Below, one piece after another: positions 416-41,510 of a stretch of DNA of 64,000 nt (its first letter is position 1; each line of letters opens with the position of its first letter). This stretch comes from Planctomycetota bacterium. Its GTDB lineage: Bacteria; Planctomycetota; J058. The stretch spans positions 124,001-188,000 of the forward strand of contig JAMLIC010000002.1 of NCBI GenBank assembly GCA_023954375.1. Reading direction: 5' to 3'. The translations under genes were made by a program, and so were the position numbers. The notes beneath the pieces are model-generated. The model ran no database searches and had not been told where the DNA came from. It saw only the letters and a program-made list of their open reading frames with translations.

Positions 416-1791
416 GCCGCACCTCCGGCCGCCTCGCGCTCGAGCGCCTCGAGGCAGCCCTCGAGGGCGGCGCGCGCGTCGCGCGCCCGCGCCTCGAGCT
501 CGCCGAGCCGCCCCGCGGCGTCGTCGAGCCGCAGGTCGCCCGGGCTCCCCTCCGTCGCGTAGGCCCGCCGCACCGCGTCCAGGTCCGTCGGGCGCGCGAG
601 GGCCCCCCGGGCGACCTCGTCGCCCACCTGCCGGTAGGCGTCCCGGAAGGGGACCCCCCGCGCCGCGAGCTCCAGCGCCCGGTGGGTGGCGAAGGCCTCC
701 GTGGCCACCGCCGCCTCGGCCCGCTCGCGCTCGACCTCCAGCCCCGACACCGTCAGCTCCATCGCCCGCGCCATCGCCCGCGCCAGCCGCAGCCCCTTCA
801 GCACGGGCTCCTTCGTCAGCTGGTAGTCCCGATGGTAGCTCGACGGGAGCCGCCCGGCGACGAGCAGGATCCGCTCGAGGTGCGCGTGCAGGACGCCCGC
901 CTGGGCGCGCGTCAGCTCCAGCACGTCGGGGTTGCGCTTCTGCGGCATGATGCTCGAGCCCGTGGCCACGTCCGGCGCCAGGCGGAAGAAGCCCAGCTCG
1001 GGCCCGGTGTAGAGCTGCAGGTCCCAGGCCAGGCGCGCCAGGTCGTTGCCCAGGAGCACGGCGGCGAAGAGGGCCTGGGCCTCGGGCTTGCCGCGGCTCG
1101 ACTGGACCGCCTGGGCGTTGACCTGCAGGCGCGTGAAGCCGAGCAGCGCCGCCGTGCGCCGCCGGTCGAGCGGCAGGGGCACCCCGAACCCGGCCGCGCT
1201 CCCCAGCGGGCAGCGGTCGCAGGCGCCGTAGGCCTCGAGCAGCGCCTCGACCGAGTCGGCCACGCACTCGGCGTGGCCGCCGGCCCACAGGCCCACGCTC
1301 GAGGGCATGGCCTGGCGCATGTGGGTGTAGCCGGGCATGACCACGGCCTCGTGGTCGCGCGCCAGGTCGAGGAGCGCCCGCGCCAGCGCCAGGCCGGCGT
1401 CGGCCGCGTCGAGCAGCCGCCGGCGGGCGAACAGCCGCACGTCGACGAGCACCTGGTCGTTGCGCGAGCGGCCCGTGTGCAGGCGCCGCCCCGGCTCGCC
1501 CACGCGCTCGGCCAGCCGCCCCTCGACGGCCGTGTGGACGTCCTCCTCCTCGGGGCTGATCCGCAGCGCGCCCTCGCGGTGGAGCGCCAGCACCTCGAGG
1601 AGCCCGCGCGCGATCGCGCGCCGGTCGTCCGGGGAGATGATCCCGCGCTCCTCGAGCATGCGCGCGTGGGCCAGGCTCCCCCACACGTCCTCCTCGACCA
1701 GCTCGAGGTCGAGGACGTGGTCGTCGCCCACCGTGTAGGCCAGGATCTCCGGGTGGAGCGCCTCCCCCTTGTCCCAAAGCCGTCGCGCCAT
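412..1791 (-). CDS. argH: argininosuccinate lyase
   Basis: Argininosuccinate lyase of the fumarase/aspartase superfamily cleaves argininosuccinate to arginine and fumarate, the last step of arginine synthesis, in the cytoplasm. The 459-residue length is normal. The superfamily signature GSSIMPQKRNP, carrying the flexible-loop catalytic serine, is near residue 280, and the N-terminal substrate-binding motif HTGRSRNDQV is present. The ATG at 1791 is followed by the typical RLWDKGEALHPEILAYTVGDD start of the family. It is divergent from the sigma54 activator, with a TAGGAT hexamer (minus strand, 1825-1830) as a possible -10. Its stop overlaps the start of the SUKH gene downstream. No other arg gene adjoins it; an ArgG-like protein lies 37 kb away. 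Confidence 0.96.
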   Translation of the reverse strand: MARRLWDKGEALHPEILAYTVGDDHVLDLELVEEDVWGSLAHARMLEERGIISPDDRRAIARGLLEVLALHREGALRISPEEEDVHTAVEGRLAERVGEPGRRLHTGRSRNDQVLVDVRLFARRRLLDAADAGLALARALLDLARDHEAVVMPGYTHMRQAMPSSVGLWAGGHAECVADSVEALLEAYGACDRCPLGSAAGFGVPLPLDRRRTAALLGFTRLQVNAQAVQSSRGKPEAQALFAAVLLGNDLARLAWDLQLYTGPELGFFRLAPDVATGSSIMPQKRNPDVLELTRAQAGVLHAHLERILLVAGRLPSSYHRDYQLTKEPVLKGLRLARAMARAMELTVSGLEVERERAEAAVATEAFATHRALELAARGVPFRDAYRQVGDEVARGALARPTDLDAVRRAYATEGSPGDLRLDDAAGRLGELEARARDARAALEGCLEALEREAAGGAA

Positions 1792-37147: not shown

Positions 37148-37188
37148 CCCTCGCCGCAGCCTTCCTGGTGGGTGTGGGTGCCGATTGG

Positions 37189-37194
37189 TACCCT
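37189..37194 (+). promoter_or_regulatory. -10-like TACCCT, leaderless geometry
   Basis: TACCCT ends 5 nt before ATG 37200; no ribosome-binding site and no clear -35 are visible. Confidence 0.3.
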
Positions 37195-37199
37195 ACGGC

Positions 37200-38147
37200 A
37201 TGGTCTTCTCCATCGGTCCATCGGTCGAGCGCGTCGTCGGGACCATGCTCGACGCCCTGGGCGGCGCGCGCTTCCAGCTCGACCTCGACGTCGAGAACCG
37301 GAAGGTCGAGCGCCTGTACACGATCGCCAAGCGCGACCAGTGGAACCTCGACGACCGACGGGCCCACTTCTTCCCCCCGCGCGACGCCGGCACGGACGTC
37401 AACGCCTGGCTGAACGTCACCGACGACCAGCGCAAGGCCGCCGCCCGCTGCTTCAGCTCGGTCTACTACGGCGAGCAGGGGGCCAAGGTCATCTCCGCGC
37501 AGCTGACGACCATGGCGCCGACGAACGAGGCGTCGAAGTTCCTCGCCACGCAGGTCATGGACGAGGCGCGCCACGTCGAGGTGTTCGAGGGGATCCTGCG
37601 GTTCATCGACCAGGTCCACGGCATGAACCCGTTCCTCAACGCGCTCCTCACCGATATCGCGCGCACGCGGCACCGCGAGGAGAAGCTCATCGGCATGAAC
37701 CTCCTCGTCGAGGGCCTCGCGCTGGCCGCCTTCAAGGCCACGCTCAAGGGGCTCCGCGAGCTGGGGATCTCGGAGCAGGGCTACCGCGCGGTGGGCGAGC
37801 CGATCGAGGGGATCATGCGCGACGAGTCGCGCCACGTCGGCTTCGGCGTCGTCGTGCTCCCCGACCTGCTCCGCGGCGCGTCGCGCCGGCGCAAGGTGGA
37901 GATCCGCCTGCGGCAGCTGGCCTGGCTGGGGCTGCTCTACGGGTCGATCAAGTACCACCAGCGCGACCAGGAGACGATGGGCGTCGACCACGTCGCGCTG
38001 CTGATCGACCTCCTCTCCGACCACGAGCGGCGCGTGGCCGAGTGCGAGGCCACGGTGCTCGTGTCGACCGAGCGCATGCAGGCGCTGATCCCGAGCGTCG
38101 ACCGCGTGGTCGACGCGGTCCTGCGCCGCGAGCGCCGCGCCGGGTAG
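37200..38147 (+). CDS. ferritin-like diiron protein
   Basis: 315 residues, all-helical. The four-helix diiron ligand set is complete: Glu92 (YYGEQGAK), E122xxH125 (MDEARHVEVF), Glu171 (LLVEGLAL) and E209xxH212 (RDESRHVGFG). Two ExxH motifs with two single Glu residues define the ferritin-like carboxylate-bridged diiron superfamily, which includes ribonucleotide reductase R2, R2-like oxidases and AurF/desaturase-type enzymes. The length suits an oxidase or oxygenase rather than a storage ferritin. ATG 37200 is 5 nt after a -10-like hexamer. No reductase partner is nearby. Confidence 0.85.
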   Translation: MVFSIGPSVERVVGTMLDALGGARFQLDLDVENRKVERLYTIAKRDQWNLDDRRAHFFPPRDAGTDVNAWLNVTDDQRKAAARCFSSVYYGEQGAKVISAQLTTMAPTNEASKFLATQVMDEARHVEVFEGILRFIDQVHGMNPFLNALLTDIARTRHREEKLIGMNLLVEGLALAAFKATLKGLRELGISEQGYRAVGEPIEGIMRDESRHVGFGVVVLPDLLRGASRRRKVEIRLRQLAWLGLLYGSIKYHQRDQETMGVDHVALLIDLLSDHERRVAECEATVLVSTERMQALIPSVDRVVDAVLRRERRAG

Positions 38148-38184: not shown

Positions 38185-39393
38185 CTACTCGTCGCGATCG
38201 ACGGGCGCCGCCGCGTCGCGCGCCCGCTCGTCGCGGCGGCGGGCGAGGCGCCCGGAGAGGGCCACCACGCGGGCGAAGCCGCCCGCGTCCCGGGGGTCCA
38301 CCGCCTCGGCCTCGGCCCACGCCTCGGGGCCGGCCAGGCCGGCGGGGCTGCGCACGCCGACGACCTCGACCGCCCCGCGCTGGAGGCGCACCCGGACCGC
38401 GCCCGTGACCACGCGCTGGGTCGAGTCGAAGAAGCGCTCGAGGTCGCGCATGAGCGGCTCGTGGAAGAGGCCCCGCTGGAAGAGGTCGCCGTAGGTGCGC
38501 GCGAGCCCCTCCTTGGCGGCGAGCTGCCGCCGGGTGAGGACCAGGCGCTCGAGCTCCGCGTGGGCGCGCACGATCACCGCCGCCGCGGGCGCCTCGTAGG
38601 CCACCCGGCCGAGCACGCCGAGCGCCCCCTCGCCCAGGTGCACGCCGCGCCCGACCCCGTGGCGGCGCGCGATCTTGCCGACCTGCCGGGCGAGGTCGGG
38701 CCCCTCGAGGGCGGCGCCGCAGCTCGAGGTCGGCAGCCCCTGCGTGAACTCGACCTCGAACTCCTCGGCCAGGGCCGCCGCCTCCGAGGCCGGCGGCACG
38801 GTCGGGAACGCGTCGTCCTCGGGCGATGCCCACGGGTCGTCGAGGTCGCCGCCGCGGGCGGTCGCCCCCCACACCCCGGACCGCACCTCGGGGCCGCCGA
38901 GGTCGCGGCGCGCGGCGTCGCCGAGCCGCCCGAGGAGCCCGTGCTCCTCGAGCCAGGCGCGCGCCTGCAGCGGGGCCGCCGGCAGGTCGAGCAGGCGCAG
39001 GTCGGGCGCGACGGCGCGCAGGGCCGTCTCGAGGAGCACCCGCTCGTCGCCGCCCGCCGCGTGCGCCACCTCGGCGGCGCCCTGGCGCCGCGCGTGCGTG
39101 ACCAGCAGGTCCAGCTCGGCGTAGCGCTCGGCCGTCGGCCACGGCGGGTAGCCGCCGCCGAGGATGACGCCGCCCTTGATCAGCCAGGCGACGTAGCGCT
39201 CCCACACGTGGTCGCTCACGTCGACGACCACGTGCTCGTCCGCCCCGAGCGCCCGCGCCGCCGCCCCGAGCGCCTGGGCGTCCTGGCCCACGTCGGCGGT
39301 CACCGCGACGACACGTCGCCCCTGCCGCGCGTGCGTCGCGACGAGGTAGGCGTCGAGGAGGTCGCCGGAGAAGGCGACGACGAGGGGGGCCAT
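38185..39393 (-). CDS. argininosuccinate synthase homologue with degenerate active site
   Basis: 402 residues, the normal ArgG length, and the family order is clear: VVAVTADVGQDAQALGAAAR, GVWGATARGGDLDDPW, then YEAPAAAVIVRAHAELERLV, AAKEGLARTYGDLFQRGLF and TQRVVTGAVRVRLQRG. Key catalytic motifs are altered. The ATP PP-loop SGGLDTS reads SGDLLDAYL, the HGxTGKGNDQ segment reads HAAGGDERV, YEGxYPLxT reads GGGYPPWPT, and VENRFVG is lost. The canonical ATP and citrulline sites are therefore missing. It may be a paralogue with a different ligand. argH is 37 kb away and a normal argG is not in the window. Confidence 0.82.
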   Translation of the reverse strand: MAPLVVAFSGDLLDAYLVATHARQGRRVVAVTADVGQDAQALGAAARALGADEHVVVDVSDHVWERYVAWLIKGGVILGGGYPPWPTAERYAELDLLVTHARRQGAAEVAHAAGGDERVLLETALRAVAPDLRLLDLPAAPLQARAWLEEHGLLGRLGDAARRDLGGPEVRSGVWGATARGGDLDDPWASPEDDAFPTVPPASEAAALAEEFEVEFTQGLPTSSCGAALEGPDLARQVGKIARRHGVGRGVHLGEGALGVLGRVAYEAPAAAVIVRAHAELERLVLTRRQLAAKEGLARTYGDLFQRGLFHEPLMRDLERFFDSTQRVVTGAVRVRLQRGAVEVVGVRSPAGLAGPEAWAEAEAVDPRDAGGFARVVALSGRLARRRDERARDAAAPVDRDE

Positions 39394-39410: not shown

Positions 39411-40385
39411 TCAGGGGCCGCGCGCGGCGATGAGCTCGGGGAGCAGCCGCACGAGCACCGCGTGGCTCTCCCCCGAGCGGCTCAGGCGGACGGGCAGGTC
39501 CCCGCGGTCGCTCGTCACCTCCAGGCGCGCGCCGCGGTCGATGGCGCGCGCCGTCGCCCAGGGGACCTCGTCAGGCGACGGCTCCGGTCCGCGGCGGACA
39601 CCCGTGGGGGAGAGGGTCATACCGCCGCCCTGGAACGAGACCCCCAGCTTCACGCCGGCGAGCCCGGCGGCCATCAGGAGGGCGCCGGCGACGACCGGGT
39701 GCAGGTCGCCGGGGCCGGGGCCGCCTCGCTCGAGCGCGTTCAAGGCCACCAGCCCCAGGATCAGGGCGCCCCACGCCCCGGAGAGCGCGCCGAGCACGAG
39801 GGACGCCGCCGCGAACCCGAGCGGCTCGCGGAAGGCGACGGCCTCTCCCTGCCGAAGCGCCGCCCGGTAGCGCTCGGCCAGCGCCGGGACCAACGCGCGT
39901 TCGAGCGCGGTCCGGATGACGTCGATGTCCCAGTGCCCGCGCCGCAGCGACACCTCGCCGCCGCCACGGAGGCGCAGGACCACCCGGTCGAGCTGGTCGC
40001 TCGTATGGAGCAGCAGCAGCCGGTCGACCTCCTCCCAGGACCAGACCTCCACGCGCCGCCCGATGCGCTCGAGGCGGTCGGGCCACAGCCGGAGCTCCCG
40101 CCCCGCCCCCGCGCGGTAGGCCCTCCAGCCGGCGCGAGCGACGAAGCCCATCGCGGCCAGGCCGGCGCTGCCGGCGCAGAGCACGACCACGACCAGGCCG
40201 GCCGCTCCGGCCTGCCGCTCGTCCCCCAGCAGCGCGATGAGCGCCGCCGCCACGAGCGGCCCTGCGAGCAGCCCCGAGCCGAGCGCGATCAGCGGCGTCG
40301 CGAGCGCGTAGACGACCGCCCCGAGGACCCGGTCCGCGAGCGGCCGGACGAGGGTCACGGGCCAGCGGCCGGCGGCGTCGTTCAT
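39411..40385 (-). CDS. multi-TM membrane protein with PH-like central region
   Basis: 324 residues. ATG 40385 has GGAGA seven bases upstream. Two TM helices come first (VLGAVVYALATPLIALGSGL, GLVVVVLCAGSAGLAAMGFV). A soluble beta stretch follows (ELRLWPDRLERIGRRVEVWS, WEEVDRLLLL), of the PH-like type seen in bacterial YdbT/DUF304 proteins. Two further helices (LGFAAASLVLGALSGAWGAL, VVAGALLMAAGLAGVKLGV) and a C-terminal beta tail complete it. The function is unknown. It is 17 bp after the ArgG-like gene on the same strand and transcribed towards it. Confidence 0.6.
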   Translation of the reverse strand: MNDAAGRWPVTLVRPLADRVLGAVVYALATPLIALGSGLLAGPLVAAALIALLGDERQAGAAGLVVVVLCAGSAGLAAMGFVARAGWRAYRAGAGRELRLWPDRLERIGRRVEVWSWEEVDRLLLLHTSDQLDRVVLRLRGGGEVSLRRGHWDIDVIRTALERALVPALAERYRAALRQGEAVAFREPLGFAAASLVLGALSGAWGALILGLVALNALERGGPGPGDLHPVVAGALLMAAGLAGVKLGVSFQGGGMTLSPTGVRRGPEPSPDEVPWATARAIDRGARLEVTSDRGDLPVRLSRSGESHAVLVRLLPELIAARGP

Positions 40386-40514: not shown

Positions 40515-41510
40515 ATGACGAGAGCTGCTGCCTGTCGACTCCTCGTCCTCCTGGCCCTCGGGGCGCCCGGCTGCGCCATCGAGTCGTTCCGCCTGGGCGA
40601 CCACCCGCGGCCGACCGCCGAGCTCACGCCGGAGGTCGCGGCGCGGTTCGACTACGCGCCGCTGGAGCCCGCCCGCCTCGAGCGGCTGGCGGTCGACGAG
40701 CCGGCCGCGCGGGTGTGGAGCGGCTCCCTCAGCGTGCGGCTGCACGACGACCCGGAGCCCGTGCCGGTGCAGTTCGAGTACTGGCAGGCCCGCTCGGTGC
40801 GCCGCGGGCAGAAGGCCCCCGCGATCGTGATCACGCCGATCCTGGGCGGCGGCCGCAGCCTGGCCGTGTCGCACTGCCGCGCCTTCACGGAGGCGGGCAT
40901 GCACGCCGTCCTCGTCGAGCGCGGGACGAAGGTCCTGAGCAAGGGCTGGCAGGTGGAGGAGGTCGAGCGCCAGGTCCGCCGGGCGGTGGTCGGGCGGCGC
41001 GGGATCGTCGACTGGCTCGAGCGCCAGCCGGAGGTCGATCCGGAGCGCATGGGCGCCTTCGGGATCAGCATGGGCGGGATCCTCACGAGCGTGCTCCTCG
41101 CCACCGAGCCGCGGCTGGCGTCGGGCGTGATCGCGCTGGCCGGCGGCGACGTGCCGGGGATCATCAGCCGCTCCGAGGAGGGGCGCCTCGTCACGTGGCG
41201 CGAGACGAAGTCGCGCGAGCTGGGGGTCGACGAGGCCGGGGTCGAGCGCCTGCTCCGGGCCGCGCTCGCCTCCGACCCGGCCTCCATGGCGCCGTTCGTC
41301 GACCCGCGCCGCGTCCTGTTCGTGAGCACGCGCTGGGACGACGTGGTGCCCTCGAGGAACCAGGTCCTCCTGTGGGAGGCGCTCGGGCGGCCGCAGCGCT
41401 ACGACCTCCCCGCCGGCCACTACTCGGGGATCATCTTCCTCCCCTGGGTGATGAACCAGGCCGTCCGCTGGCTGGACCGGCGCTTCCGGTTCGCCGGCGG
41501 CGCGACCTGA
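40515..41510 (+). CDS. alpha/beta-hydrolase lipoprotein
   Basis: 331 residues. A signal peptide ends in the lipobox-like GAPGC. The alpha/beta-hydrolase fold shows the nucleophile elbow GISMGG (Ser near 184), the acid in STRWDDVVPSRNQ and the His in AGHYSGIIF, so the triad is complete. The region AIVITPILGGGRSLAVSHCR precedes it. It is probably an esterase or acyl hydrolase anchored to the envelope. A promoter-like TACCCT lies 8 nt upstream, with no ribosome-binding site. Confidence 0.85.
   Translation: MTRAAACRLLVLLALGAPGCAIESFRLGDHPRPTAELTPEVAARFDYAPLEPARLERLAVDEPAARVWSGSLSVRLHDDPEPVPVQFEYWQARSVRRGQKAPAIVITPILGGGRSLAVSHCRAFTEAGMHAVLVERGTKVLSKGWQVEEVERQVRRAVVGRRGIVDWLERQPEVDPERMGAFGISMGGILTSVLLATEPRLASGVIALAGGDVPGIISRSEEGRLVTWRETKSRELGVDEAGVERLLRAALASDPASMAPFVDPRRVLFVSTRWDDVVPSRNQVLLWEALGRPQRYDLPAGHYSGIIFLPWVMNQAVRWLDRRFRFAGGAT

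Follow-up and report, generated by a model that had tools for sequence, protein, structure and literature searches.

A probable ArgG-derived pseudoenzyme retained under purifying selection in a genus of Planctomycetota

The window, the whole 64,000-nucleotide stretch of DNA that was analysed, carries on its minus strand an open reading frame with an ATG start, 402 codons and a stop codon whose product belongs to the ArgG family; its boundaries are those of the initial annotation. Below, G000 denotes the window genome, G001 a sister species in the same genus and f1 their family. The features discussed are:

574..1713, minus strand: argH (TIGR00838, 308 bits, cut-off 279.5; G000:C28:124574-125713)
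37185-38147, plus strand: convergent neighbour, a ferritin-like di-iron protein weakly resembling R2-like ligand-binding oxidases (below cut-offs)
38185..39393, minus strand: putative ArgG-family pseudoenzyme of clade C, 402 aa (ORF, profile matches, AF2 model, fold matches)
38248..38874, minus strand: retained C-terminal ArgG domain, residues 174-382 (PF20979)
39040..39063, minus strand: degenerate substrate motif, residues 111-118, HAAGGDER, with a two-residue deletion (clade norm HGSTGAGNDQ; alignment)
39139..39141, minus strand: codon of Trp85, a derived residue common to degenerate copies (column comparison)
39349..39372, minus strand: degenerate PP-loop, residues 8-15, FSGDLLDA (clade C norm [FY]SGGLDTS; alignment)
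39411-40385, minus strand: gene with no Pfam match, between the argG-like gene and the hydrolase gene in G000
40527..41510 (start approximate), plus strand: alpha/beta-hydrolase, divergent neighbour of clade-C argG and synteny marker (G000-G004)

Both ArgG domains were recognised above the Pfam cut-off of 27 bits, the N-terminal HUP domain (PF00764) at 44 bits and the C-terminal domain (PF20979) at 144 bits. Together with the retention of 36 of 48 conserved C-domain columns, this bears out the earlier description of a full ArgG-family frame with a conserved C-terminal region. The protein nevertheless missed the equivalog threshold, scoring at best 178.9 with the NCBIfam ArgG models (cut-off 334). 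It is also no member of NF038212, the "argininosuccinate synthase-related protein" family (62.6 bits, cut-off 425), which is likewise related to ArgG yet separate from it. Homology to clade C, the ArgG group defined below, spans the full length of the protein (27-51% to remoter members and 92% to the sister species). A search for related loci starting from the window recovered the sister species alone (1 of 62 stretches), on contig JAHBXY010000008.1 (Planctomycetota bacterium isolate ACE_PLA31).

Of the four motif changes that drew attention to this protein, two were confirmed and two call for correction. Human ArgG numbering is used throughout for comparison with the human enzyme, and the ATP, aspartate and citrulline contact roles that we take these positions to have follow UniProt. 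The PP-loop SGGxDT[ST] is absent, SGGLDTS having become SGDLLDA, or AGDLLDA in G001; relative to human ArgG the window protein shows G14D, D16L, T17D and S18A. The motif corresponding to TGKGNDQ, which binds aspartate and citrulline and reads (S)TGAGNDQVRF(D) in the clade, has become AAGGDERVLLE, with two residues deleted relative to the protein's own clade; at T119, N123, D124, R127 and S180 the window protein has a gap, D, E, L and E. The nearest intact relative, G002, has the clade residue at every position changed in the window protein. Among 90 columns at least 90% conserved across the 35 intact members of the clade, the window protein retained 23 of 42 in the N-domain, as well as the 36 in the C-domain, while G002, itself among the 35, retained all 42 and 48. 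The reported change of YEGxYP to GGGYPPW stands in part: Tyr87 and Pro88 are kept and the segment is close to the clade's RGGVYPL, but Trp85 is new. The supposed loss of VENRFVG has to be withdrawn; HLGEGALG is the clade state, and we rejected this change as a sign of inactivation because intact clade-C enzymes carry it too, as HLGDTILG.

A search of 98 genomes, 80 of which had a match, gave 119 ArgG-family proteins from Planctomycetota, and trees were built from 116 of them (three short fragments were left out; the midpoint root served for drawing only). The window protein was placed within clade C, which comprises 40 proteins from 40 genomes, 35 intact and five degenerate. SGGLDT[ST] was readable in 34 of the 35 intact proteins; in G010 the start of the PP-loop is unreadable in the draft, and this protein was scored as intact because LDTS and the remaining motifs are present. 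All five degenerate copies (G000, G001, G003, G004 and G006) come from family f1. The sixth f1 member of the clade is the intact protein of G002, placed on a short branch beside them, and the draft genome of G005, also f1, gave no clade-C match. The f1 members are monophyletic (support 0.999; 99) and the degenerate copies group together (support 0.98; 95), on long branches that leave the details within the group uncertain. Synteny agrees: the hydrolase gene adjoins clade-C argG in G000-G004, thus tying degenerate copies to intact G002 (in G006 the top hydrolase match lies on a separate contig). Clade C supplies the sole ArgG-family match in 21 of the genomes searched, so argininosuccinate synthesis is very probably the job of the clade and its ancestor very probably a working ArgG.

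If the altered motifs were conserved among close homologues, as the initial annotation proposed to check, they should recur in the other degenerate copies. Judged by the annotation's criterion for decay, a lack of conserved replacement motifs, the outcome is split. The PP-loop replacement is common within the genus only (SGDLLDA/AGDLLDA, against AGRLEDC and SGGVGSS in relatives), but two other residues are shared: all four degenerate proteins compared (G000, G003, G004, G006) carry Pro200 and, within the citrulline loop, Trp85, both of which are absent from all 35 intact proteins. Trp85 is found in G001 as well.

In ten neighbourhoods read (G008, G010, G014, G016, G024, G035, G052, G061, G072 and G097), clade-C argG stands first in a cluster running argG, a P-loop protein gene, argC, argD, AOTC (N-acetylornithine carbamoyltransferase), argB and argE, except that G016 has no P-loop gene there and the contig of G008 stops within argB. 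The AOTC of G008 scored 368.8 against a cut-off of 288. The clade-C argG of G012 and of G047 lies apart from those operon genes. AOTC exceeded its cut-off in 34 of 35 genomes with an intact clade-C protein and in two of five with a degenerate one (G000, G001), and ArgJ accompanied none of the 35 intact and two of the five degenerate proteins (G004, G006). The Xanthomonas campestris enzyme and NCBIfam PRK04527 are presumably of this AOTC-operon type. At human positions 191, 270 and 282, intact clade-C proteins have Gly, Gly and Phe (34, 35 and 34 of 35) in place of the Glu, Glu and Tyr of canonical ArgG, in which we take Glu270 and Tyr282 to be citrulline-binding residues. As judged from these residues and gene order, clade-C enzymes with AOTC in their operon may use N-acetylcitrulline directly.

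The window gene shares with these enzymes the HLG(D/E) C-terminal signature, the fold and traces of an ancestral neighbourhood (the hydrolase and, in G001, the P-loop gene, which starts a few bases after the degenerate argG). It differs from them in lacking the PP-loop and the NDQ-R motif, in lying away from the arginine genes and in coexisting with a canonical ArgG. The operon genes found in G000 sit on other contigs, argD, AOTC, argB and argE being clustered on contig 61 and the P-loop gene lying on contig 14. By profile match, the arginine pathway of this genome continues past ArgG, with argH present in the window itself. Because the hydrolase is the only conserved neighbour still beside the gene in G000, genomic context is silent on its role. 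The gene at 39411-40385 was considered as an operon partner and rejected, as it is absent at the syntenic site in G001; on the sequences compared, this difference is an insertion or deletion that followed the G000/G001 split.

The P-loop protein of the arginine operons is itself unnamed (L059:6796-7866, plus strand; G000:C14:196-1251). It had no Pfam or NCBIfam match at default threshold, on which ground we rejected it as a transcarbamylase, and one of three members examined had a sub-threshold match to DUF1611. Its model (pLDDT 91.8) resembled, in VIA, the DUF1611 proteins 2g0t (Z 17.3, the top row) and 2obn (15.7), the N-acetyltransferase DgcN (7xrj, Z 15.1) and many other P-loop proteins, such as CTP and dethiobiotin synthetases, at Z 14-16; because so many score alike, the fold alone singles out no function. 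Among the 98 genomes, 35 had a strong match to this protein, 32 had ArgJ over its cut-off, one had both and 32 had neither, a near-exclusion with a Fisher p of 8e-7 when phylogeny is ignored (weaker matches, two at 154-174 bits and others near 20, were left out of the counts). AOTC is present in 32 of the 35 genomes with a strong match. The linear AOTC pathway requires an enzyme that N-acetylates glutamate, and no other was seen in these operon clusters; the P-loop protein is therefore a candidate for a new N-acetylglutamate synthase.

The window genome has three ArgG-family genes, the window gene being the third. A canonical ArgG was sought elsewhere in the genome, as had been suggested, and found: ArgG-A, on contig 25, scored 518 bits and has SGGLDTS, TGKGNDQ and every other motif intact. 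ArgG-B, on contig 50, is a second odd paralogue, with SGGHGT and AAKSNDQ. Together with 29 further proteins, ArgG-B (G000:C50, L002:1459-2709) forms a phylum-wide ArgG paralogue group (FastTree support 0.88). The loop Asp is missing in 17 of the 29 members with a readable PP-loop, usually beside another, intact ArgG, and SGGxGT is the PP-loop of most members in the window's order. The group-B protein of G000 scored 393 against the NCBIfam ArgG cut-off of 334 and would thus be named ArgG.

The window gene is not decaying freely. Between G000 and G001 it has no indels, and the differences at the three codon positions number 18, 9 and 109 (109 of 136 at third positions). By a simple counting method applied to this one species pair, at a third-position G+C of 0.99, dN/dS was 0.118 for the exact ORF and 0.128 from stop to stop. 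Four of the five other frames gave 3.1-7.2 and one antisense frame, with six stops, 0.265, so that the real frame was the lowest of those compared. Values for other genes of the same pair were 0.146 for ArgG-A, 0.111 for ArgG-B, 0.070 for the P-loop gene, 0.053-0.222 for arg genes, and 0.167 and 0.238 for two neighbouring genes, the hydrolase and a glycosyltransferase. A pseudogene is rejected by the dN/dS and the frame controls. The earlier argument that a coherent frame of normal length speaks against decay thus reached a conclusion that dN/dS, the lack of indels and the frame controls support, though length by itself is weak evidence at 77% G+C, where frame openness proves little because the antisense frame is open too. 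The G000/G001 comparison shows constraint, not what causes it. Against G002 dN/dS was 0.82, a value unusable because of large divergence and unreliable synonymous counts. The ratio of N-domain to C-domain dN was 1.93 for the window gene; a first comparison of the two domains against ArgG-A and ArgG-B gave a Fisher p of 1e-5, but the difference is not decisive given the spread among four pairs of intact clade-C genes (1.48, 0.72, 0.80 and 1.12).

An AlphaFold2 model built on an alignment of 38 clade-C proteins reached a pLDDT of 92.5. The best Foldseek rows were solved ArgG structures, at TM 0.84-0.86 over nearly the whole chain, and VIA aligned 362 residues with Legionella ArgG (Z 43.5, rmsd 2.2). 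The ArgG fold of the protein is therefore predicted to be complete. The model also resembles ArtA (9leh, 9lei; VIA Z 40.2), for which both the PDB title and a reference within PMC13060819 use the name ArgG-like nitrile synthetase; going by those titles, ArtA is a case of the ArgG fold serving another purpose. By sequence ArtA matched at E 2.8e-4, below every bona fide ArgG chain among the matches listed; the likeness is one of fold, with no specific sequence link.

There are several possibilities for what such a protein does. It could still be an active argininosuccinate synthase with altered motifs, for it keeps Ser12, Gly13, Tyr87 and Arg95 (human numbering) and a complete fold; with the PP-loop Asp, Asn123, Asp124 and Arg127 all replaced and a canonical ArgG in the same genome, we regard this as barely plausible. 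A synthetase or ligase for another substrate, as the initial annotation had offered, would fit the intact fold and the Trp85 that degenerate copies share in the citrulline loop, and ArtA illustrates a switch of reaction within the ArgG fold. Such new chemistry is nonetheless distinctly unlikely: the losses reach beyond the substrate residues to the pyrophosphate loop itself, which has been replaced differently in each lineage. The gene might instead be a relict in decay, its function gone with the takeover by ArgG-A and its frame held open chiefly by very high G+C. The three other degenerate lineages (G003, G004 and G006), with different PP-loops and shortened C-termini, look like a loosening of constraint at the family level, and no clade-C copy turned up in the G005 draft. 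Decay is still unlikely for the window gene given the evidence above, including a dN/dS below that of its two neighbouring genes.

We favour, as the probable reading, an ArgG-derived pseudoenzyme left over after ArgG-A took over and kept for a non-catalytic role. Pseudoenzymes are known from many protein families; no ArgG pseudoenzyme was found described in the literature searched. Catalytic residues have been lost and purifying selection acts on the gene, and the fold is predicted to be kept, from which inactivity would follow. The ancestor would have been the clade-C ArgG of an arginine operon with N-acetylornithine carbamoyltransferase. Once a canonical ArgG-A had taken over argininosuccinate synthesis in family f1, the clade-C copy, relieved of catalysis, could have lost both the ATP pyrophosphate loop and the aspartate/citrulline motif, on the simplest view a single time at the base of a subclade, with rapid divergence. 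Purifying selection would then have retained a folded protein in the genus of the window, most likely acting without catalysis. As selection protects the altered protein, a second, non-enzymatic use is probable. Of the "non-catalytic regulator" once suggested, the non-catalytic part holds, both ATP and aspartate/citrulline motifs being lost, and no result shows a regulator. A structural or ligand-binding role might be played through the retained C-terminal (oligomerisation) domain and the remodelled citrulline loop. More tentatively, the protein could serve arginine metabolism as a pseudoenzyme that binds a ligand or acts as a scaffold. Having lost ATP chemistry once in the family and gained a Pro-x-Trp that is conserved in the citrulline loop, it would be held by selection, possibly to sense or hold a molecule resembling (acetyl)citrulline or arginine, or to assemble with a pathway protein.

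On this reading, the steps of an enzyme displacement are visible within one family: an intact relative, broken copies that are under selection in one genus, the replacement enzyme and the ancestral operon. The locus is also a warning for annotation, in that ArgG-like matches in Planctomycetota include copies unlikely to be the arginine enzyme.
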